A stretch of DNA of 64,000 nt from Antedon mediterranea (taxonomy: Eukaryota > Echinodermata > Crinoidea > Comatulida > Antedonidae): the NCBI RefSeq assembly GCF_964355755.1, contig NC_092677.1, positions 18,446,101-18,510,100 on the forward strand, in the 5' to 3' direction. Below the pieces are notes generated by a model. The model was not told the DNA's origin. It ran no database searches and was given only the letters and a program-made list of their open reading frames with translations. The position numbers and the translations under genes were made by a program. Positions 1,712 to 57,300 of the stretch are shown here, piece by piece; position 1 is the stretch's first letter; the number at the start of each line of letters is the position of its first letter.

Positions 1712-2756
1712 GTACGTAGGCCTATGCTGTTTTTTTATACTAATACATTATTTACTTTACTAATCGCTGTAGAATGATTTCTCCGATCTACTGTTTTTAG
1801 TTTTTTTATTATAAGTAATAGGTGTTTTGGTTAGCAACTAGTAAACTAGGAAATTTGAAGAGAAATTCATTGGCAAGGAATCACGTAAGAAAATTTAGTA
1901 AACATCCATTAATCTGATCGTATCGTCACTTTTTTTTTATCAAAGCATCGCATCTCAACACGAACATGATTTTACAAGAGGACACAAAAACGTTTATGTT
2001 TTTGTTTTTGTAATTTGTCAATTAATAATCAAATTGTAATGAATGAATTGAAAAAAAATACAACATATTTAATAAACTGTTAGACAAAATAATAATAAAT
2101 GTAGGTATAAAATGATTGTTTATTTTACATTAATTAAATTGAGGTTTTAAAAAGGTTAAAACACGAGACAATTTAATAGAATAGCGACAATAATATACAG
2201 TAGGGCATACAATGTTGTAAGCTTTGAAATGGATATGATTGGAAGTATATCGAAATTACTATTTGACATCATTTTTCTGATTAGACCTTGGGACGGAACT
2301 ACACAAGGCCATATACATGGCTGCAGTCGCGTGCTCAGCTCCAATTATTGTTTACCGACCAAGCGACCGACCGACCCACCAACCGACCGACACGCGTTGC
2401 ACAAGACTGAAAATGTGTTTAAATAATACAATAACTTTTAATTAGTGTCAATATATTTTATTAGTAATGTATTGTATAAAAGCTTGTTTTCCACTATTCT
2501 ATTCAATGTTTCGCAAAGAAAGAAAGAAAGAAAGATTCGCTCTACATTTTCCACTGTAGGAGCGATAGCTGTGATTTTCATTTACATGGCGTCGTGTTTC
2601 TGCTATGAGCAGAGCCATATATATAAAGAGTTACGATATTGGATTATAGTCACGTGATATGCAGATCAAATTGTGTCAAACTTGTCTCCATTAATGCATG
2701 TAAAATATAGGAGCAACAAAATACTTTCAACTTTTTCTTATATTAAAAAAAATGTA
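1712..2756. other. Intron or intergenic sequence with dispersed-repeat fragments
   Basis: No coding region was recognised. A (GAAA)n microsatellite lies near 2515-2535. A run of CCGACCGA-type repeats near 2359-2394, next to a segment reading GGCTGCAGTCGCGTGCTC, recurs inverted near 19,681-19,740. A segment around 2610-2640 (ATATATAAAGAGTTACGA) recurs inverted near 6960-7000. Confidence 0.5.
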
Positions 2757-3356
2757 ATTTCACATTTTACGATGAAATATCGACGTGCACAGCGTACAGA
2801 AGTACTTGCGGCAAAGAATATTGCGCGCGCGTGCGCTAGTACATTATAAAGTTCGTTTGATTGATTTTGGAACGAAACATCCCATAACTACGTCCTATTA
2901 ATAACAATAACAATATTTTCAATTCATGATGCATGCTTTGATGACTAAATAAATAATAAAGTGTTGTGGATATATTTGTTAATATGCTGAAAAGGGTATA
3001 AACAATATTAAAATAATAAAGGCAAATTATTATAAACTAGATGGTACGCTCGCGAAATTTCACATTTTACGGTGAAATATCGACGTGCACAGCGTACAGA
3101 AGTACTTGCGGCAAAGAATATTGCGCGCGCGTGCGCTAGTACATTATAAAGTTCGTTTGATTGATTTTGGAACGAAACATCCCATAACTACGTCCTATTA
3201 ATAACAATGACAATATTTTCAATTCATGATGCATGCTTTGATGACTAAATAAATAATAAAGTGTTCTGGATATATTTGTTAATATGCTGAAAAGGGTATA
3301 AACAATATTAAAATAATAAAGGCAAATTATTATAAACTAGATATGGTACGCTCGCT
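2757..3356. repeat. Direct tandem duplication, two 300-bp units
   Basis: The sequence starting ATTTCACATTTTAC at 2757 starts again exactly 300 bases later at 3057. Only about three substitutions were seen by eye across the unit (for example ACGATG versus ACGGTG), so the duplication is recent. The first unit ends with about 18 bases of the Helitron terminus (CTAGATGGTACGCTCGCG). The second runs into the complete terminus of Helitron copy A at 3337, so the breakpoint lies inside the Helitron hairpin. Confidence 0.85.
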
Positions 3357-4665
3357 TCGCTCGCGTACCATCTAGGTCGTGCCCACAGATGGTTCTCGAA
3401 TACACAGTAATTTCAGCGTAACAAAACTGGCGATTTCAAATGTACGTACCGCAGGACTATAATACATTGTCGTTTACAGAAACGAATAATTAGACACGAT
3501 GATTTATGTAGTAAACTAAAATTAGCACCCTGGGAATTACTTCCGAAGAAGAAACTTATCACAAAATGAGTCCAAATTTTTGATTTGGACTCATTTAAAG
3601 AAACCCAATTTGTGTTTTGTATGTAACATTAGGGTTGAGGGATGGAAAAGCGGATAGGTACAAAGAGAAACAATTTTTAAATATATTCTTTATCCACTCA
3701 GTAACGAACTATTTTTTTCATGTTTTATAGGCCTATAAATAATATACCTCTAAATACAGTAAAACATTTGCGATTTAATACTTTGTTAAAACTGTCACTG
3801 TCATAATCAATCGAAATATTAAAGTACATGTCACGATACACCACTACGACGTTTATATTTTTGGTAATTATTAATTAATACAAACGTTGAGAAGGAACTG
3901 TTACTATAAAGTTTATTTGTATATAATAATGTGTTTATATATATCTAACAGTAGAGCCTATCCACAATCTAAGTAATACAGTTTATTTGTATATACTTTA
4001 TATTACATCTAACAGTACGAACATTCACAGTAAGAAATGTTCGATTCAAATGAGGACCAAAAATAGTTAATAGGCATTTACAGTATTGTCAAAGTATTGC
4101 AAGTTTATTCTCAAAGGGCCCATATATTTACCTACCGTATGTGTTAATCCAAGGGTTCATAAATGTACCTACTTGTGTTAAACCAACTGGCAGACTGAGA
4201 GATTGGGATGTTCCATTCATCGAAATTAATACATTTGTATAATCGTATATTAAATCTGTCAAAATAGTATTTTTTTAAGAAAATCGGCCTGTCTTCAACA
4301 TTATGAGGCTGTACTCTAGCTGTTCAACCGGTTTTCAGCTATTAAAAACAATTATCGTAGGAGGAGATAGGAAAATGCGAAGCCTCATCGCATTTTTGTG
4401 GCGGTTATTTTTCAAGATGGACATCCATTAGACAGTGTATACCACGATCGGAAAACACCCCTATTTGGGGCAAATCGTTGAACCTAAATTCGTTTTAATC
4501 GTCAATAACTTATTATCTAACTTAATTTAATTAGTAAACAGGGTTACATCAGGTGGTTAAAATCAGTACCGAAAGTACGAACCAACTTTATATACCATCG
4601 AGTACAAATTCTAAAAGTAAGGCGCGATTTACCGAATTTTGCCCTTACGTAAATTTATATATAGA
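3337..4665 (-). mobile_element. Non-autonomous Helitron, copy A (first of a tandem trio)
   Basis: On the minus strand the element begins TCTATATATAAATTTACG at 4665 and ends in a GC-rich hairpin closed by CTAG at 3337. The TC start and CTAG end are Helitron hallmarks, and host A/T flanks are met at the outer ends of the trio. No coding capacity is visible, so mobilisation would depend on a Rep/helicase supplied elsewhere. Copy B abuts it with no base between. Confidence 0.8.
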
Positions 4666-5143
4666 CTAGATGGTACGCTCGTTTCGCTCGCGTACCATCT
4701 AGGTCGTGTCCACAGATGGTTCTCGAATACACAGTAATTTCAGCGTAAAAAAACTGGCGATTTCAAATGTACGTACCGCAGGACTATAAATACATTGTCA
4801 GAAATGAATAAATAGACACGATGATTAATGTAGTCAACAAAAATTAGCACACTGGGAATTAGGCCTACTTCCGAAGGAGAAACTTGTCTTAAAATGAGTC
4901 CAACAAAATAAAACTGTCCCTGTTATAGTCGATTGAAATAGTAAAGTACATGTACACCACTACAACGTATTCGTTTTAATCGTCATTAACTAATTATCGA
5001 ACTCAATTTAATTAGTAAACAGGGTTACATCAGGTGGTTAAAATCAGTACCGAAAGTACGAACCAACTTTATATACCATCGAGTAAACATTCTAGAAATT
5101 ACGCGCGATTTACCGAATTTTGCCCTTACGTAAATTGATATAA
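4666..5143 (-). mobile_element. Non-autonomous Helitron, copy B (internally deleted)
   Basis: The CTAG hairpin end (4666) and the opposite end region with TACCGAATTTTGCCCTTACG are both kept, but about 0.9 kb of the interior is missing compared with copies C and F. Its 5' terminus reads TTATATC rather than TCTATAT, so that end has mutated. Copies A and C abut it directly. Confidence 0.75.
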
Positions 5144-6607
5144 CTAGATGGTACGCTCGCTTCGCTCGCGTACCATCTAGATCGTGCCCACAGATGGTTC
5201 TCGAATACTAATAATGTCAGCGTTAAAAAACTGGCGATTTCAAATGTACGTACCGCAGGACAATAATACATGTCGTTTACAGGAACGAATAAATAGACAC
5301 TGTGATTTATGTACTCAACTAAAATTAGCACCCTGGGAATTACTTCCGAAAAAGAAACTTGTCACAAAATGAGACCAATTGTTTAAGTCAAATTTAAACA
5401 AACTTAATTTGTGTTTTATATGTAACATTATGGTTGAGGGATGGGGAAGAGGATGGTGCAAAGAGGAACAGTTTTTAAATATATTCTTTATCTATTTATT
5501 CTTTATTTATTTAGTAACGAAATATTAATTGTTTTCATGTTTTACAAATAATATACCACTAGACACAGTAAAACATTGCGATGTAATACATTTTTTAAAC
5601 TATCACCGTCCTAGTCGATTGAAAAGTACAGTACGTGTAACGACACATCACTACGACGTGTATATGTTTATAATGTATAACAATTTGTGAAAACCACCTC
5701 TATTCGGGGCAAATCATAAATTCGATTTAATCTTCAATAAATATTAAATTATCTAACTCAACTTAATTAGTAGGCCTAATGGTTTTCAATTGTTTCTTAG
5801 AGCTAATTCATACTTAAGTTGATTCCTACCCTACCCACCAAAGTTGTTCTGCGTTTAGGGCATGTGATGCACTGTAGGCCTATCCTCTACTGGCTTTACA
5901 ACGCTACTCATGCCAGTGAGGGAAGTAGGGTGTTGATGTGGGTGGTTTAACTGCAATAATAAAGATTTTTTGTACATAAATATACTGCGACTGAAAACGC
6001 TAGCTTATTATCCTTTTAAAAAAAATTATATCCAACTTCTGCAGCACAGATTGAAAAAAAAATGGATCGAATTTCTGTAATGAGTATACAGTACTTTCCT
6101 TTACGACGCCTGAGGGAATAGAAACTTGTGGAACGACACAGAGATTGGAATGTTCCATTCTTCGCAAATCAATACATTTGTATAAACGTATATTAAATCT
6201 ATAAAAATAGTATTTTTTAAAGAAAATCGGCCTGTCTTCAACATTATGATACTGTACTCGAGCTGTTCAACCGGTTTTCAGCTATTAAAAACAATTATCG
6301 TAGGAGGAGATAGGAAAATGCGAAGCCTCCTCGCATTTTTGTGGCGGGTATTTTTCAAGATGGACATCCATTAGACAGTGTATACCACGATCGGAAAACA
6401 CCCCTATTTGGGGCAAATCGTTGAACCTAAATTCGTTTTAATCGTCAATAACTAATTATCTAACTTAATTTAATTAGTAAACAGGGTTACATCAGGTGGT
6501 TAAAATCAGTACCGAAAGTACGAACCAACTTTATAACCATCGAGTAAAAATTCTAAAAGTAAGGCGCGATTTACCGAATTTTGCCCTTACGTAAATTTAT
6601 ATATAGA
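5144..6607 (-). mobile_element. Non-autonomous Helitron, copy C (full length, third of trio)
   Basis: This copy is 1464 bp long, with the hairpin and CTAG at 5144 and the TC terminus at 6607. The base after 6607 is T, so on the element strand the host base before TC is A, as expected for insertion between A and T. It matches copy F along its length. No protein-coding frame is present. Confidence 0.8.
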
Positions 6608-7683: not shown

Positions 7684-8813
7684 ACCCTGTTTACTAATTA
7701 AATTGAGTTAGATAATTAGTTATTGACAATTAAAAAGAATTTAGGTTCAACGATTTGCCCCAAATAGGGGTGTTTTCCGATCGTGGTATACACTGTTTAT
7801 TCCATGTCCATTGTAAAAATACCCGCATACCATAATACGAGGATGCTTCGCATTTTCTTATCTCCTCCTACAATAATTGTTTTTAATAGTTGAAAACCGG
7901 TTGAAGAGCTCAAGTACAACATCATAATGTTGAAGACAGGCCGATTTTCTTTAAAAAATACTATACTATTTTGATAGATTTAATATACGTTTATACAAAT
8001 GTATTGATTTGCAATGAATGGAACATTCCAACTTATTTGGTTTAACCATACTTGCATACTTTAACAGAAGTAGGTAAATGTATGGACCCTTGGATAATAA
8101 ACATAACTAGTATTAATGCTATACAATACTGCAAATAGGTATTAACCACTTTTGATCGCCATTTGAATCAAAAGTGTGTTGGTACTGTTAGATATAATAT
8201 AAACAAGTATACTAATAAACGTTATCACTGTGAGTGTGGGTAGGCCCTACTGTTAGATTATAAACACATAATAATATAATACTTTATTACTGACAGTTGC
8301 TTCTCAGCGTTTGTATTAATTAATAATTACAAAAATATAAACGTAGTAGTGGTCTTTAAATGTACGTACTTTACTATTTCAATCGACTATGAGACAGTGA
8401 CAGTTTTAACAAAATATCGGTAATGTTTTACTCTATTTAGTGGTATATTAATTATAGGCCTATAAAAAAAATATTTTGTTACTGGGTGGATATAAAGAAA
8501 TATAAAGAATAATTTAATAATTATATAGAATATATTAAAAATTGTTCCTCTTTGTACCTATCCTCATCCCCAACCCTCAACTCTAATGTTAGATTCAAAA
8601 CACAAATTGGGTTTGTTTAAATGAATCCAAATAAAAAATTTGGACTCATTTTGTGACAATTTTCTAGGTGCTAATTTTGGTTGACTACAGGTAAATCATT
8701 GTGTCTATTTATTTGTTTCTGTAAACGACATTGTTTTATAGTCCTGCCGTACGTACATTTGAAATCGCCAGGTTTTTTACGCTGAAATTACTATGTATTC
8801 GAGAACCATCTAG
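7684..8813 (+). mobile_element. Non-autonomous Helitron, copy D (5' truncated, hairpin lost)
   Basis: This plus-oriented copy begins inside the family sequence at CCCTGTTTACTAATT, so roughly the first 140 bases are missing. It ends CGAGAACCATCTAG followed by T. In other copies the ACCATCT at this point is followed by about 50 bases containing the terminal hairpin and a second ACCATCTAG. Here the two ACCATCT copies are collapsed into one, removing the hairpin while keeping CTAG. Confidence 0.75.
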
Positions 8814-12877: not shown

Positions 12878-15800
12878 ATGCAAACGTTGGTAGTTGTGTT
12901 TCTAGCCGTGTTTTTTTTTAACGGTGGTTGTGGTGAAGGTAAGTTAGTATCAAATAATATATTATTATCTTTAATTTGCTTTACAATGTATTACTATATA
13001 CATTATTGATTACATAAACCTACAAGTATAAAACAGCAACTCAAAGAACAAATATTCAACTGGGAGCCATTGGGTTTCTTTATATAAATTTACGTAAGGA
13101 AAAAATTCGATAAATCGCGCGTTATTTCTAGAATGTTTACTCGATGGTATATAAAGTTGGTTCGTGCTTTCGGTACTAATTTTAACCACCTGATGTAACA
13201 CTGTTTACTAATTAAATTGATAATTAGTTATTGACAAAACACGATTTACCCCAAATAGGGTTGTTTTCCGATCATGGTATACACTGTCTAATGGATGTCT
13301 ATCTTGAAAAATACCCGCACACAATAATACAAGGATGCTTCGCATTTTCCTGTCTTTCCTCCTACGATAAATGTTTTAATGGCTGAAAACCGATTGAACA
13401 GCTCGAGTACAGAATCATATTGTTGAGGATTTTCTTTAAAAAATACTATTTTGATAGAATTGATATACGTTTAAACCACATGTATTGATTTACGGTGAAT
13501 GAAACATTCCAAAGGTATTACTAGAGGGTTCGTTCGCTCGCCATCCTCAAGGAAGTGTAGACGTCGACGGTTCTCGGAATGATAATGACTCTGGTAAAAA
13601 TGTTTTAGAAGGAAATTTTTGCCTGGACATTTTCGGTCGGTTACCATTATTGAAATGCTTGATATTCGTAACTCACTAACCTGTTTCACAGTGTCTTATG
13701 ATTAATAGCGTTTTACGTATAGTGTTTATTGTTAGCACTAGGGATTCAGACCAAAAAAAATCAAAAAGATCTAACGTCTATTGATTTTTGGGCAAAAAAT
13801 TGCCTCAAACTGAATCCCAATAAATGCAAATCTATGCGACTTACTTAGAGAATATATCCCATTATATACAGCATTTCTGATATACGTTTAGATTGTAATG
13901 ATTTATTAAACATTTTAGGCTGTTCCATACAAAGTAACTTGTCATGGGACAATCAAGTTCAGGATGCAGTGTCAAATTGTAACCGTCTTATTGGTCTTAT
14001 ACGGTTAATCACATCTATGCCTCTAGTAGTGTAGTTCTCCATCTTTATAAGACACTTGTGCTGTCATGCTTTTATTATTGTTCTCTAGTGCGGTGGGTGT
14101 ACCGTAAAAAATATTTAAATATGTTAGAATCCGTTTAGAGGAAAGCTACCTGCATGATCTTAAAGAAAGGTTATTTACATCAACATTATATAGATAGAAG
14201 AAAGGAGCTAGGTCTAATGTCAGTAGAGAATAGACGTGATTTCTTAAACAAGACATTCATTGCCAATATAATAATTTCACCACGATCTGATTTTATGAGT
14301 GATTATATTGATTCTTTAACCGACACCTAGTTATACTTACCTTTCATTATGGTAGAGTCCGTACTGATGCTTAAATAATCAGGGATAGCAAAATGTTTTC
14401 AGAACTTGGTGCTCCGATTAGAAATAATCTTATTGAAGAGTCGTTTTTTAAGTTTAAACACAGTTTAAAGCAACATTTTATAGATTTTTTACTTTTCATA
14501 TTTTTATTTATTTTTTTAAATTGTACCTACTCTGAATTTTTAACTTTTTAACTTTTAGAAAATCAGAATTTTTAACTTTTATACAATCATAATTTGTAAC
14601 TTTTATACAATCAGAATGAAGATGACAGTTTTATTGCTTTTCCGCTACCCTGTTATACTTACATATTTTTTTTTATGTAGAAAGATTGAAAATAATTAAA
14701 AAACAAAAGAAAGAAGCGTGACAAAGAAGCGTGAGATTTAGATTAGGATTTCTCTTGCTCCAGTCGGCCATATGTAACAGAATGTGGCACACAATCGTGC
14801 GTGCTGGTGGTCTTATGACGACTATGACAAAAAATACATAACATAAGTTGCTGATTGTTGTTAACAACCTTTTTTTATCTTTACAGAGATCACATTTCCA
14901 GGAGGTTTCGGAGGAGGAAGAAGTAAGTAAAAGAAAGATATATGAAACTATAAATAAACATTCATTGTTCGTTTTAATGTTTCTCGATTTCATTGAGGCA
15001 TATTTAGTATTTAAAAAAATGAATTATGACATGCTTCATTGCTTTTATACACTAGATGGTACGCTCGCTTCGCTCGCGTACCATCTAGGTCGTGCCCACA
15101 GATGGTTCTCGAATACATAATAATTTCAGCGTTAAAAAACTGGCGATTTCAAATGTACGTAGGCCTACCGCAGGACAATAATACATGTCGTTTACAGGAA
15201 CGAATAAATAGACACTGTGATTTATGTACTCAACTAAAATTAGCACCCTGGGAATTACTTCCGAAAGAGAAACTTGTCACAAAATGAGACCAATTGTTTA
15301 AGTCAAATTTAAACAAACTTAATTTGTGTTTTGTATGTAACATTAGGGTTGAGGGATGGGGAAGAGGATGGGTGCAAAGAGGAACACTTTTTAAATATAT
15401 TCTTTATCCATTTAGTAACGAAATATTAATTGTTTTCATGTTTTACAAATAATATACCACTACACACAGTAAAACATTGCGATGTAATACTTTGTTGAAA
15501 CTATCACCGTCATAGTCGATTGAAATAGTACAGTACATGTAACGATACATCACTACGACGTGTATATGTTTATATAATGTAAAACAATTTGTGAAAACCA
15601 CCTCTATTCAGGGAAAATCATAAATTCGATTTAATCGTCAATAAATATTAAATTATCTAACTCAACTTAATTAGTAGGCCTAATGGTTTTCAATTGTTTC
15701 TTAGAGCCAATTCATACTTAAGTTGGTTCCTACCCTACCCACCAAAGTTGTTCTGCGTTTAGGGCAATGTACCGTAGGCTATCCTCTACTGGTTTTACAA

Positions 15801-18800
15801 CGCTACTCATGCCAGTGAGGGAAGGGTGATGATGTGGGTGGTTTAACTGCAATAATAAAGATGTGTACATAATATACGGCGAGTGAAAACGCTAGCTCAT
15901 TATCCGTTTAAACAAAATTTATATCCAAAATGGATCGAATTTCTGTTATGAGTATACAGTACTTGCCTTTACGACGCCTGAGGGAATAGACGGTTGTGGA
16001 ACAGAGATTGGAATGTTCCATTCATCGCAAATCAATACATTTGTATAAACGTATATTAAATCTATCAAAATAGTATTTTTTAAAGAAAATCGGCCTGTCT
16101 TCAACATTATGATGCTGTACTCGAGCTGTTCAACCGGTTTTCAGCCATTAAAAACAATTATCGTAGGAGGAGATAGGAAAATGCGAAGCATCCTCGTATT
16201 ATTGTTTGTGGGTATTTTTCAAGACGAACATCCATTAGACAGTGTATACCACGATCGAAAAACACCCATATTTGGGGCAAATCGTTGAACCTAAATTCGT
16301 TTTAATCGATCAATAACTAATTATCGAACTCAATTTAATTAGTAAACAGGGTTACATCAGGTGGTTAAAATCAGTACCGAAAGTACGAACCAACTTTATA
16401 TACCATCGAGTAAACATTCTAGAAATAACGGGCGATTTACCGAATTTTGCCCTTACGTAAATTTATATATAGATGTATAGTTAAAACATTGTAATGCTTG
16501 TTTCTTACAGGAATACAACCCACTGGAGGCCATGGTGGTGAGTTGAAAGTGTTTTATATACAATATGTTTTAGTTTTCACAAATACTATTATTTATTTAC
16601 TTGATAAACATAAAACTATGTTGAAATGGTTGTATTAAGCATATAATAATACTTATATTAATAATGATAAACCAATATAATACAAAATATTGTGCAAACT
16701 GAACAATATGTAAGTGTACCGACCAGAATTGTTCTACATAAAAATAGGACTTTCTATATAAAAACTGCCAAATTTCCTAAAACGACGAATTTTCTGTTTT
16801 TACGCTCTACCGTACGCATCTTTAAAAGAATAGATCATTTCGCAGTTTTAAATAATTTACTCACTTCCGTAATCAAGTTTTGTTTTATTTTTCTTCTTCT
16901 TTGTTTTTAGAAGTAGGTCATTGTTTAAACTGTAAATACATCACGTGTAAGCCAAAGCAGCCAAATCTTTCAACTCATGAAATAATTATCTTCTTTCAAA
17001 ACACTAAACTCTTCACTACCTGTTACAAAGTACATTTCTATTCAAATAATGATTCTATCTTCTTGAATCGTTGTCAAACTCTAAGCTAGGAAGGTAGTCC
17101 ATTAAAAAGGCAGCACTCCTATTTTGAAATCGAAATAGTACCATGGATATTTTGAATGCGAAAGAGTTAAAAAGCTGCACGGGCACTATGACTATGAATT
17201 AATGAGGTATAAATTAAAAAAATGTATACCTTCATGACTAATCTGAAATCATATGTATATCCCTAATATGTCTACATTGTTAAAATATTGTTCTCTGTAA
17301 AGTTGTCCTTGATTCTCAACCGCAAAACAATGAAGCCAAAATGTTTTATAAAATATCCAAGCACCACAATAATCTAAATCAAGATACATAGGCCTACAAT
17401 ACAAGATCAAAGGAATTATTAAAATTGGATAAACCCAAAACAGAATTTAAAACTAAAGTTTTTGATATCGTGGTAGATTATGGAATACTGTAGAAAACCC
17501 AATGCAAAGTGCCAAAAATACTTAAACAAAACTTTGCATGTAACTTTATTTTGTACCCCTAAATATAATGAAGGTTTCTGTTTATTTAGGCCTATGTTTT
17601 TCTCTCTCTTTTATTTTTAAATTAGTAATGTATTAAGTTGATCATGGCCTTGTTGTAGAACACTTTTCCGTGTTAAAATAAAATGATTTATTATTATTCT
17701 ATTATTATATGGAAAAGAGGTCATATATATTTAGAACGATTAATTAATCTTCCCCAACTATGACAAATGTGATGGCAAATGCCGTATAAACAATTATGCC
17801 CCATCGTTCACGTAAAGTTATCATGTATACTTTTTCAGCTCATGAAAGAAATCGTCGGGATAAATGTGAGTAGCTCCTGTACATATTGTAGTTAATAGGC
17901 CTACCTTTGATATATTACGTCTGTGCTGAAATAATATTTCAAATATATGTTTTTTGTTATTGATTATATAGGCCTATGTTCATTGAATTTGTATCGGTTA
18001 CTATTTGTATTTAACCTTCTGTTTTGAAATAAAATAAATATTTTCACTGAAAATGCAATAGGCCTACATACGGACACTTTAAAATAAAGTAAATGCTTTG
18101 GGTCGATAGCTATGGCAATGTTTTGGTCAATATAATAAAATTAACTAAAATACAAAGAGGACGTATCGTATCTTTATAATTTTACATACATATCGTAAAT
18201 GTACACCGATACACTACGTAATCAATTAGGTGGGGGCACATAGGCTACGTACAGCATACATTTTGCATACCTTGATTTACTGAATTTCAGATCGCTGTAA
18301 CTAAAACGTGTTACAAGGCTTAAACAAGATTAGGCCTATAACCTAACAAATTTGGGCTGTTCAAAATGTTAATTATTTGTTGTTCTACGCTTTGTAGCAC
18401 TAGTACCTCCTGCCGTAACTGGAATAAATGTTGAAAGTGGTGAGTCAACTATCCATAACTTACACTTATTTTAAACAGTAACAGGCTGATAGACAAGAAA
18501 CAATAATTATATTTTATTGCCTATGATAAAATAGGCAATAGCGTTATAGCCTACGTATTACATTTTAAAACAAGTTTAGCATAGTAACAGTACTATATTA
18601 CATTACATTATGTAAGTGCCATAAGTTATCATTTGTTTTTTTACTGTATTTCAGGTCATGACAGAATCCGCCGGGAAGAACGTGAGTAACTGTAAAAAGT
18701 TGATAAAACATTTATTTAAACAAGACTTATAATAAATCTAATATATTTTTATTATCTTAACATTTAACTTTCGATCACATCACTTTTTTTTTTTTATTAT

Positions 18801-31302: not shown

Positions 31303-32337
31303 AGATCACATTTCCAGGAGGAAGAGGAGGAGGAAGAGGAGGAGGAAGTAAGTGAAAGAAAGATTAAATATCAAACTATAAAAATCATTCATTGTTCATA
31401 TTTCTTGATTGCATTGAGGCATATTAGTATTTCAAAGAAGGATTGAATAATGACATGCTTCATTGCTTTTATACATGTATAGTTAAAACATTGTGATGCT
31501 TGTTTCTCTATAGGAATACAACCCGCTGAAGGCCGTGGTGGTGAGTTGAAAGTGTTTTATATACAATATTTTTTAGTTTTCCCAAAATACTATTATTTAT
31601 TTACTTGATAAACATAAAACTATGTTGAAATGGTTGTATTAGGCATATAATATAGGCTTATATTATAAATGATAAACCAATTTTGTTGATTTATTTATTC
31701 TAATTCTTCAAATTATTAACCAAAATAGATATGATACAAAATATTGTGCAAACTGGACAATTTACAAGTGTCCCGACCAGAATTGTTCTACATAAAATAA
31801 AATGTTTAAACTAAAATTCACAACTAAATACCATCGATATACAAATTACATTTAACAACAAGTTAAAAGCTTAGCATCAAAGTTATGTTTTAGTGTTAAA
31901 GACAAAGGAGAATATAATTAATATCGAATACTTTTACATACAACATCATTCATCACAGTCGTTAACTTATTAAAGCTTCCACTCCCCACTTGGACAAAAC
32001 GCGTGGTCGCCACAAGTAAATTGACCAATCACGGCGCGGTGGATCAACTTATCTGTGTCGAGGAGCGAGGAAACAAGTCCCAATATTGCAATGAATAAAT
32101 ATGACGTAGGTTGGTCGTCGGTCAGAGGTTATATCTGTATTTGTGTGTCTACTATATCATAAAATTGATAAAAAAAGGATACAAATTGTCAACAATAAGC
32201 TACAAATAAATGTTCACAATTTTCTTAAACTGTACAGTGTGATTAATTATTATTATTAACTATTATATCATTATTGTATATACATTTTAATGTAATTAAT
32301 TATTAATGTTTCAATTGTATTTTTAGATGGTTACTAA
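31303..32337 (+). pseudogene. Partial paralogue of the EGF gene (mini-exons 2 and 3 plus a terminal exon)
   Basis: Exon 31303-31347 (45 nt, phase 1) reads EITFPGGRGGGRGGG and matches 14887-14922 with a GGR expansion. Exon 31514-31540 (27 nt, phase 1) reads RIQPAEGRG and matches 16511-16537. After TTTTTAG at 32,326 a short reading DGY-stop could be the terminal exon. Flanking intron sequence also matches (TGACATGCTTCATTGC, GTGAGTTGAAAGTG), so this is a segmental duplication. No signal-peptide exon or EGF exon was found here. It may be a fragment, or an alternative 3' end of the upstream gene, since all phases are compatible. Confidence 0.6.
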
Positions 32338-36864: not shown

Positions 36865-38178
36865 GTGAATACCTCACACACTGAACACAAATTTCATGAA
36901 CATTTTGCATCGGATACAAACCAATTTTCATTACTACACTTTAATATCCGTAGCATGAATACAAATTTTGACCACCTCTATAATTCTTTTTCATCACATA
37001 TTGATTCTGCTCCTACAATTGTTGGTCTCACAGAGACTTGCCTATCTGATTCTTCACATAACCTTTACCCACTCCCCGGCTATAATTTGTTAACAAACAG
37101 TAAACCTGGCGATCAACGTGGAGGTGGTGTAGCAATACTTGCCTTCTGTCTTCGATTGCCAAGCATTATCTGAATTACAATTTATGAATGACATATTGGA
37201 ATCTATTTTTGTAGAAATTAGATGTCCTAATAAAAAAAATATTGTCGTTGGAGTCGTGTACAGACCACCACAAAGTAACATATCATTATTTAACACTGAA
37301 ATTGAAAACATTCTCTCACATCAAGCATTAACAAATAAAAATGTGTTTATTATGGGCGATTTAAATTTAAATTTACTACATCACGATGAAAATGCACGCA
37401 TTAGTGAATTTCTAGATACATTAATTTCATTTTCACTTATTCCACTTATTACCAAACCTACACGTGTAACTGATATTTCATCTACGTTACTTGACAATAT
37501 ATTTAGCAATATCCACCCTTTCCCGGCGGTCTCGGGAATTATTGTATCCGATATATCGGATCATTTTCCGATATTAGCAAAAACCTCGCTAACGGTTAAT
37601 CAACATTGTAACTGTCATTGTAATAAGACATTGTAATCTTTTAATCCCCAATCGTTGGCTCACTTTAAAGAACGTTTGGCAATATTTTCAATATTTATAT
37701 AGGTATATTTATTGACGACAGACTTGACTGGAAAGCCCATGTTAATTACCTTTGCAAATTATTATCAAAAAATGTTGGCATGATGTATAAATTGAAATCA
37801 ATATTTCCTCAAAAAGTATTAAATATTTTATATTCTACTCTTATTTTATCATACTTAAATTATGGTGTTCTTGCTTGGGGAAATGCTTCAAAATCAATTA
37901 TTACTAAAATTTTATTAATCCAGAAACGAGCTGTCAGAATTATCTCAAGGGTAACTTTTCGTGCTCACACCCAAGATCTCTTTCAAAAAAATAAAATATT
38001 AAAAATTGAGGACCTCTATAGATTTAATGTTGGTGTCATCATGTTTCAATTAACCGCCGGACACTTACCACCTATAATATCCAGTAAATTCACTCAAAAT
38101 AAACAATACCACACTCACCAAACAAGACAAAAAGATCAGTATCACCTGCCATTTACTCGAACTAGTCTTAACGACTAG
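36865..38178 (+). pseudogene. LINE ORF2: endonuclease and C-terminal parts, RT core deleted
   Basis: The first frame (36,865-37,173) has LLHFNIRSMNTNFDHL, IVGLTETCLSD and GGGVAI. After a frameshift, 37,139-37,636 has VVGVVYRPP, FIMGDLNLNLL and DISDHFPI, all landmarks of the APE-type endonuclease. Then the sequence jumps to FIDDRLDWKAHVNYL and ILYSTLILSYLNYGVLAWG (37,690-38,178), which normally lie downstream of the RT active site. The FADD box and most of the RT are absent, so about 1-1.5 kb was deleted. Confidence 0.8.
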
Positions 38179-38383
38179 AAATAATGTACATATAACCTTG
38201 AATATACAGTTCAAATTACACTTAACCATGGACATTTTAAAACTCTAATTTAATTGTTTAACGAAATAATATTGTCATTGGGTTAAAATGGCTGTGTTAA
38301 AAGCAATACATTCTGTGCGGCGTTTGAATGCGAGGCTCTGAAGCTAGAATTGGAAGGCTATAAGCTGAAATTTCTTGGTAAAA

Positions 38384-54300: not shown

Positions 54301-57300
54301 TTACTTTAGAGGATATCGTTTATTTTGACTATGTTAGTGAATTGGTAGATTAATTATCAGGCATGTTTATTTAGTTAGTTGATTGATTGATTGATTGGTA
54401 GATAATCATAGATATAATATTTACCATACTCCACTTGGTAACAATTTGTTAGTGCAAACGGACTACAAAGAGAATAATTATTTTCTGAAAGAGAAAACAG
54501 GTATAATTATAAATGCAAACGAAGTTATAAAGAATACTTCATTTTTCACGCTGCTGCTCTAGCCCGCTACGTCCCATTAGGACTACTCAATCAGAAGCTA
54601 AAGCAAGCAGCAGTTATAGTTCTAAGGACAGACAGTAAAATAACTATTATGTGACAATAAAATGACACATTCAAAAACATTTGTAATAAAAAATATTTTT
54701 CAATAAGCGAGCAGCGTTTTTTGTAAGAAATATTTCTTGTTCTAATTATAGAAGATTCAAATTTCAAGCCGTCGTTACTCTGAATGAATACAGTGAATGA
54801 AAACAAAAACGTTGTCCTACTCGAGGTATAGTATGTCTTGCAATGGCAACGTCGATACATTTCTTCAGCTTCGCAGTCAAGAAAGCATTTAGATTGAGAA
54901 TAGTTCATATCTGGATTACAGTCATTCGATCGCTCTAGTATTGTTTTCTGAAATTCAAAATTTAGAAAATGGATAATGCTGTGACAAAACTCAGGAATTA
55001 AGAAAGCATTGTTATTTACAAGATCTCCAAATATAATGTCGATTGGCCCCGTGGTTGAGGCAAGAGGAACAATTGAACATTTTCCAATGCTCCCCTCAGC
55101 CATGATTCCGGTAGAAAACAGATCTTCTTGGATAAAAACTTAAAGTGGAGGTCCAGTATACACATGTGGTTCATGGTAGAGGTGGTTACATCGTGTCCAA
55201 TTCATAAAAAAAAAAAAAATCTTTACAGGACAATTGGTGGCACCAGAGGAACTATTTGAAGTTTAATATGCTATTTAACACATGGGTTTACTAATCAGAG
55301 GTATGCATTGTCAGTAACTAAGTGGACCAGAAAGTACACGATCACACAAAGTAGAATAGAAATGCAGATGTAAGGCCATAAATACTTTAAAACTTAACAA
55401 AGATGAGGAATGAGAAATGAAAGAGCAATGATGATAATTATAATCACAATCTCGATAAAACGGAAATGTCAATAAAAAATGAGGGATAAATAAAGAATGA
55501 TTAGGCCTACTACTAATTAATTATTTAAACAAAATGAAGCATGGGTATACCTTGTGTTTTGTTATGGCTATGGCCGAATGCATTCCAGGAGCCAATTGGA
55601 TCCTTGTTGCGGTCTGACAGTCCGGTAACACGTTCAGTGGATGAATCATAACGGCAAAGCCGATGCTTTCTCGTGGGGCAGAAACATATTGGGCTGCTTG
55701 AGCATTTAGTATTAACTTTAAACCATGCCCAGCACCTGATGAAATAATTACAAATACGTCAGAATATTCCCTAATAATAAGGCCTAACAAACCTAGTATT
55801 TTCTCTCAAATATTAATTGTAAAGCTCTTAAATACATGCTAATTTATTTCGTCCTTCTTCGAGAACGGATTCTAATGTGAACAACACAAGATTATGCATA
55901 GTCGATTGAATCAACACTTCACATTCACTATGCCTGTATTAGTGTAGGCTGGTATGTCGTTTATATGAATGTCGTGTATATTTTTTGTTAAAAGCAAACT
56001 TTGACTTTATTTCATATCTTGATAATATAAGGAATGAAAAAAAATATGTTGCCATTTTTTCAAAAGACATTTAAAGGACCAAATTCAAGATGGCCGCCAA
56101 CATTCAAATAACCCTATTAAAAATCAGAATATCACCAATAATACAAATTATGAATGTGGAACAAGTCTGTTTTGATGGTATTACTGTACCCATTATACAA
56201 TACTAACTATGTAAAGCGATAATCTGTCGGCCATCTTGGATTTCAAAATGGCCACCACTAAAAATTAAATTCTTTAAATAATTTTTTTTAAATATGTGTG
56301 CATAAATTGTTGTTTGTACACAATGTTCTAAAATTGTCACTTCTCACAGGATTGTAAATTGTAAATATAAGGCTGTCTAAGGTTGTCAATGTCCTCTATA
56401 TAACAGATATATAATACCCCACTATGACTATTAGATTAAATAATCGTTCAAAGTTGGAGTTGCAAAAGTATGGAACAACTTAACAATTTATATCAAATAT
56501 TCAACAACAATTACGTCTAACTAGAGGGTTAGACCTCTAGTTCGCTTGCTCCCCTCTCGGAAGTGTAAACGAAGGTTCTCGGAATGATGACTCGGGTAAA
56601 AAGGTTTTAGAAGGACGTTCTCCTTGTACGTTTTCTGTCGGTTACCATTATTGAAAATGCTTGGCATTCGAAAAACTAAACCTACTCTGTTTCACAGTGT
56701 CTTAGATGATTAATAACATTTTAAAGTATAGTGTTTATTGTTTTATAGGGCGGAGGTGGGGAGGCAGAGTTCATTTGAGGGAGATGCTTATTCGAGGTAT
56801 TTTTTAGTTTTAATAAGAAGGAAGATGTTTTAGACGGCTTGCAATATGGGCCCTAATGGGACACAGATAGCCTGCAGTTATTCCTGCCAGCTTACTCAAT
56901 AAAACTCGGCTATCGGGATTTTATTTTTTAACTACTGTACCTTCACACGCGCGGTCCGATCCGAAAATAAACAAAAAACTAAAATAGCAAGGTGAAGCTG
57001 TGAACTAATCGTGAACTCGGAAATTACTTTGACCGCGTACAATTGAAATTGACTTGAAAATCTACCGATGAATCAGAAATTTTGTTTTAAAACTCTTTAT
57101 AATATATTATATTCCTAAGATAGAAATATGGAACAAAATCGTAATAGTGAAAACTGTTTTACATTTCGCGGTACACCTAAGATAGTTCAGGTAGGTATCC
57201 AAGGCAGAAATTTGTTTCAAAGTTTTTCCATTGTGCTCGCCTATGTCAGAATTAACCATAATTTATATATAGATTCTAAATTACAGATCTCATTTCTTTT

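Follow-up and report, generated by a model that had tools for sequence, protein, structure and literature searches.

The 1422-bp insert at positions 15052–16473 (minus strand) of the window, the 64,000-nucleotide stretch of DNA analysed here (G000:C8:18446101–18510100), is very probably a non-autonomous Helitron that is moved in trans by a Helraiser-like RepHel, enters sites of the form A|T-N6/7-AATT and inserts serially at the left end of resident copies. With somewhat less confidence, we consider it likely that this represents a group of Helitrons with a true directional target (A|T, with AATT 8–9 bases on) that homes in on left ends of copies already in place, including those of another family. 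Three things go beyond the original prediction of a Helitron with base-exact ends and an empty site in the same window: the target motif, the arrays formed by self-insertion (three units inside the window) and a one-base ambiguity of the ends. Our findings touch on how Helitrons choose their sites and on whether tandem Helitrons reveal rolling-circle replication.

Direct reading of the plus strand at 15052–16473 gave TTTATACA | CTAGATGG...TATAGA | TGTATAG: the insert lies in an intron, starts with TC and ends with CTAG on the minus strand, and is too short for a RepHel frame. The intact paralogous intron expected near 31,470 was located by direct reading and intron alignment, with the empty site TTTATACATGTATAG (corresponding to TTTATACA|TGTATAG) at 31468–31482 of the plus strand; its core is intact on that strand of the 64-kb window only there, and with the insert left out both introns align gaplessly across the junction, within 45 identical bases. 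The claim of base-exact ends without duplication holds in part: no longer duplication is present, but one base is ambiguous because the first T of the element (minus strand) equals the host T; on the plus strand, the base preceding the insert and the last base of the insert are both A. A|TC...CTAG|T, AT|C...CTAGT and C...CTAG with a 1-bp T duplication fit the window insert equally well, and the choice of the A|TC boundary follows only by analogy with the cleavage of Helraiser before TC, as described in passages of PMC4778049. A palindrome centre was also considered as target, as TATACA|TGTATA is palindromic, yet the targets of the fetched copies generally are not and this was taken as chance. 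A search of the genome (354 Mb, 18 contigs) with the empty intron found no locus beyond the two of the window itself (3 pieces).

Given at least 53 genome matches and the shared ends of the genomic copies (39 loci fetched, ends read), the window insert is not a chance sequence. Near full-length matches at 91–100% identity number 35 with the window copy counted, and these match counts are lower bounds, 40 of 3093 candidates having been scored; the copy at G000:C8:4463207 is 99.7% identical. Genome-wide, the 15-base 3'-tip pattern has 955 matches and the 16-base 5'-end pattern 1838 (backward control: 3). The 5' end is intact at position 1 in 33 of 40 end-alignment rows, the base before it being A (27), T (5) or G (1, L017), and the remaining seven rows comprise three fused dimers, one altered start (L025), two 5' truncations (L033, L036) and one 5' end at another offset (L035). 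A second, cleaner empty site was obtained for a copy inside a highly repeated sequence (L020), where 42 pieces were listed and all four paralogues fetched proved ungapped over 300 of 300 joined bases with one mismatch each. A weaker one is provided by a diverged repeat in the window (38176–38304, plus strand), which matches the joined flanks of L037 at 72% with gaps near the junction. Neither another consistent boundary nor longer target duplications, the outcomes named beforehand as contrary, were seen, and the identity as a non-autonomous Helitron is upheld by dispersed copies with TC/CTAG ends and A|...|T flanks, by the cleaner empty site and by RepHel relatives. A Spy-like element was ruled out by the TC/CTAG ends and RepHel relatives; elements of that kind move by cut and paste without target duplication. 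The window also contains the 5' part of another copy, 85% identical (13077–13512, plus strand), and two genomic copies (L038, L039) each contain a different piece of foreign DNA, about 410 bp in one and 365 bp in the other, at almost the same inner spot, near element position 547.

The search for an autonomous Rep/helicase copy that the original prediction had called for was successful, with 87 genome matches to the PF14214 profile and RepHel copies with related ends. The autonomous relative E44 (C1:29677649–29686831, 9183 bp) starts A|TCTATATTATAATTAACATACGTAAGGGC and shares three stretches with the window insert: the 3'-terminal 66 bp (94% identical), 13 bp at the 5' end, where the tips also look similar by eye, and an internal block of 30 bp; as the matches are limited to these stretches, we regard E44 as a relative with compatible ends and not as the proven driver. 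Its RepHel is a 1439-codon open frame with Pfam matches to Helitron_like_N (9e-53) and PIF1 (9e-70), which aligns with Helraiser (7lcc) at E 1.1e-243 over residues 85–1422 and exhibits HVH at 507, the paired tyrosines Y653/Y657 and a Pif1-type helicase; a Pfam scan of the frame found no endonuclease domain. A second autonomous relative, E42 (C5:12368752–12378190, 9439 bp), pairs with a second non-autonomous family (L089: first 160 bp 94%, last 59 bp 80%), and has a split RepHel frame; in its sister E41 the frame is open. The left-end tip TCTATATATAAATT, at 16460–16473 (minus strand) in the window insert, is identical in both non-autonomous families and E42, and a left end of the second family, TCTATATATAAATTATGGTTAATT, follows a host A at 57250–57273 (minus strand). 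Upstream of RepHel, the autonomous elements (L049/L044, L047/L042) contain a conserved small ORF of 154–155 aa, ORF1 (154 aa in E44), with 47% identity over 137 residues between both elements and no Pfam family above cut-off; it is a likely coiled coil and may serve as an accessory or target-binding protein. The canonical Helitron family L040/L043, also present in this genome, was ruled out as partner because its 3' end is different. A long tandem array of 61-bp units was also seen to adjoin an autonomous Helitron (L048/L041; E41 2040–4430).

Judged by ends, insertion site and RepHel relatives, we would file the window element as a Helitron that is variant in hairpin placement, and we count the flush hairpin, the directional target and the insertion at its own left end as variant features. 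It shares with Helitron1 the 5' TC and 3' CTRR ends, the A|T insertion without target duplication (the one-base ambiguity being inherent) and, through E44, an autonomous relative with a RepHel (HUH, Pif1 helicase). Canonical Helitrons have a spacer between hairpin and end. The hairpin of the window element does not lie 10–12 nt upstream of CTRR: it is flush with the end and has CTAG inside its stem, for which reason we do not call the element a canonical Helitron1. That it should instead be a Helitron2/Helentron (HINE-like) is barely conceivable: the hairpin is unusually near the end and RepHel frames that are open over about 3000 aa, a length typical of Helentrons, are numerous in the same genome, but the A|T site, the TC and CTAG ends and a partner RepHel of 1439 codons that matches Helraiser over 85–1422 and has no Pfam endonuclease domain all argue against it, and T|T or TTTT|T is not the usual insertion site (of 83 unique flanks, 95% have A and 5% have T at -1). 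These long frames contain Helitron_like_N, are in part clustered locally (C1, C4, C8) and represent a second, larger RepHel type; L045 and L046 are neighbouring pieces of one such locus of about 3000 aa, L046 also holding bases 1–547 of a family-1 copy. Among the closest known systems is the bat Helitron1 Helraiser/Helibat1, which likewise has TC...CTAG ends, an A|T site and a RepHel with HUH, paired tyrosines and Pif1-type helicase; unlike the stem found here, which includes CTAG, its 19-bp palindrome is set 11 nt upstream of the element's terminus (PMC4778049).

The hairpin predicted at the very tip of the insert could be verified: it comprises 37 nt including CTAG (15052–15088, minus strand), with a 13-bp stem and a GCGAAGC apex, and folds at -14 kcal/mol (z -6.45), with 0 of 200 shuffles equally good. 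GCGAAGC has been described in the literature as an extraordinarily stable DNA mini-hairpin. Across eight tip sequences from both families the columns GCGAGCGAAGCGAGC are invariant and four stem pairs vary on both sides; in a shuffle test (500) of this alignment the cells paired (93.3%), the cells changed on both sides and the covariation score exceeded all shuffles, and the number of changed pairs (99/500) and the pair types (77/500) were not beyond them. As the second-family rows came from a pattern fixing GCGAAGCGAGC and CTAG, independent support for a common apex comes only from W, E44 and E41. The flush hairpin with like apex and varying stem in two families hints at what in the terminator is recognised by its sequence and what by its shape. 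In L029 and four C1 rows of the 3'-tip matches the loop is inverted relative to the family (GCTCGCTTCGCTCGC) with the stem unaltered; hairpins with inverted loop, read from the other side, account for 4 of the 100 listed 3'-tip matches.

Ends without hairpin were also found: TCGAGAACCATCTAG has 68 matches genome-wide, and a partial copy in the window (7684–8813, plus strand; similarity from element position 122) ends ...GAGAACCATCTAG|TAATAATAATT and lacks the hairpin. ACCATCT repeats flank the hairpin, and the hairpin-less ends look like clean loss between both repeats, the usual T...AATT flank being present in most. Two of 55 unique flanks are common to hairpin-less and hairpin-bearing copies, which suggests that the hairpin was lost after insertion in at least two copies.

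In most unique sites examined the target is the extended site A|T-N6/7-AATT. Among 80 unique 3' junctions, AATT lies at +8 or +9 past the end in 52, compared to 4.3% of AT-matched A|T sites; it starts at +8 in 45% and at +9 in 20% (about 1.3–1.5% each for A|T sites of the window), A at +9 reaches 93% versus 40% in AT-matched sites, and T follows CTAG in 79/80. These junctions were kept from 100 listed of the 955 matches, all on contig C1, after dropping 15 repeats, 2 inverted-loop hairpins, 2 array flanks and, by eye, 1 G-flanked repeat (GCCTAGG...). The motif recurs in 24 of 33 held-out copies (from 40, less the duplicates L006 and L007, the array loci L022, L023 and L031 and 2 contained in the first set), in 62/92 unique flanks (from 100) of the second family with its other stem, versus 5.6% (353 matches to its own tip pattern), and in 36/55 unique hairpin-less flanks (from 68). 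The autonomous copies fit it as well, with AATT at +8 in E44, +9 in E41 and +8 in E42. A score matrix from the 80 sites separates the 33 held-out sites from background with an AUC of 0.93 and places the window insert site at the 81st percentile of A|T sites: its host 3' flank TGTATAAAAGC (15041–15051, minus strand), with T at +1 and A at +8/+9 and no AATT, is a weak form of the motif, and roughly a third of unique sites have no AATT at +8/+9. The 5' flank (83 unique sites from 100) shows A at -1 in 95%, T at -1 in 5%, no G at -2, T at -3 in 52% and little signal beyond -3. Since the motif is one-sided and the 5' flank offers little but A, recognition of the site is mainly one-sided, at a distance of roughly one helical turn from the nick.

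A mere by-product of AT-rich or open insertion sites could in principle generate such a signal, and Helraiser prefers AT-rich targets, most strongly on the 3' side (PMC4778049); we consider this highly improbable here, since AT-matched sites give 4–6% against the 65–73% observed, the signal is one-sided and at fixed positions, and AATT is present in 0 of 7 T-flanked ends from L040/L043, a canonical Helitron with spaced hairpin in this genome; that set is small and some of its rows may be chance (9 rows listed, 2 not T-flanked; backward control 3). Keeping to a directional target, the AT-rich 3' preference of Helraiser could be a weaker relative of the AATT signal, although the text of PMC4778049, its logo figure aside, gives AT-richness and no AATT at fixed distance. 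A word search of the literature (helitron, AATT, target site), with Repbase, supplements and figures outside its scope, gave no match. IS200/IS605 and IS91 also use HUH transposases that act on a single strand, with no duplication and a short preferred target; these elements are bacterial and without RepHel, and their short targets abut the element end, unlike the signal described here, which lies 8 bases off.

Copies also occur head to tail, with 68 exact CATCTAG|TCTATATATAAATTTA junctions genome-wide; allowing up to two mismatches raises this to 102, ordinary A-flanked ends being among the additional matches. With about 77 million genomic A|T sites (scaled from 13,971 in the window, both strands), far fewer than one junction is expected by random insertion. 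The window itself holds a triple array (3337–6607, minus strand): unit 1, of the same family as the window insert (5144–6607), unit 2, internally deleted with the altered left end TTATATCAATTTACG (4666–5143), and unit 3, with the 3' tip CATATCTAG followed by TTTATAATAATTT and AATT at +9 (3337–4665). At its first junction the resident left end is altered to TTATATCAATTT, which gives AATT at +8.

Both a concatemer reading (PMC5876387) and a serial-insertion reading (PMC2267711) of such arrays are in print. Rolling-circle concatemers, in which one element is copied repeatedly in a single event, would account for CTAG|TC junctions that are exact and have no A in between, and are the published reading of bat and plant arrays in PMC5876387; for the arrays described here we hold them to be very unlikely, as neighbouring units are no more alike than shuffled ones (19 unit pairs: mean identity 0.9370 versus 0.9378 ± 0.0023, with 61% of shuffles at or above the observed value), each unit has a closer relative than its own neighbour in 19/19 pairs, and in six mixed junctions a right end of one family abuts a left end of the other, three in each direction. 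The pairs derive from 20 fetched array loci, 13 with both left ends readable, plus 6 earlier pairs; the window is represented by the first and third units of its triple array, and L067 and L068 represent the same array in two copies, the closer relative being in each case the other copy. No array of near-identical units was found among the 19 pairs. The cross-family junctions were picked from near-matches in the junction list, with 6/6 confirmed on reading, and two of them (L096, L098) look like duplicates. Given neighbours no closer than shuffled pairs and the cross-family junctions, we therefore read the arrays as serial insertions at the element's left end and not as concatemers, and this is the better reading for the pairs examined. 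In maize, one pair of different Helitrons with an exact head-to-tail G/T junction was likewise read as consecutive insertion, with the order unclear (PMC2267711), as opposed to the 68 exact junctions, the shuffling test and the cross-family junctions available here. FoHeli of Fusarium provides one insertion 2 bp from another element's 5' end and a preference longer than two bases (TNAT); unlike the present elements with TC/CTAG and A|T, it has Helitron2-type ends and asymmetric inverted repeats (PMC5148889).

Serial insertion could also proceed in the opposite order, with the downstream unit as newcomer at G|T after an existing CTAG: the junction would be identical, and the downstream unit appears younger by nearest-relative identity in 5 of 15 untied pairs, the upstream one in 10, with 2 ties and L067 and L068 excluded. 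We regard this as unlikely, because G precedes TC in 0/83 unique 5' flanks (a single array flank set aside) and in 1/33 intact ends (L017), and because the normal site, A|T, is available at the left end of the resident copy. A good match of the left end to the score matrix was ruled out as explanation for insertion at the resident left end: with the left end an ordinary target (57th percentile) and AATT at +11, the target motif alone does not explain self-insertion.

We envisage that RepHel, or the accessory protein ORF1, would nick one strand between A and T with AATT just downstream, that the tip hairpin with its GCGAAGC apex would mark the end of the copied strand, and that this strand would then join the nicked site. 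The left end TCTATATATAAATT would itself receive a RepHel nick whenever a move begins; because of this obligatory nick, new copies may also enter the left end and stack head to tail, and where a junction within a stack decays, both units could move as one longer element. If true, the head-to-tail arrays that have been taken as evidence of rolling-circle concatemers in Helitrons are stacks of separate insertions, and decay of inner junctions is a birth route of longer, composite Helitrons. A single genome here offers hundreds of junctions, a motif open to mutation and in vitro testing, a test that separates both readings of tandem arrays, and natural composites with broken terminators moved as units.

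Such composites are found at three loci (L011, L016, L021), which contain the same 2.7-kb fusion of two units between differing A|...|T flanks. Their inner junction is missing roughly 12 bases from the tip of the right end and 8 from the start of the left end that follows. The two units are 93–94% alike within a composite, while like units are 98–99% alike across the three loci with their different flanks: the two fused units have therefore transposed together, which is what read-through of a broken terminator would produce.
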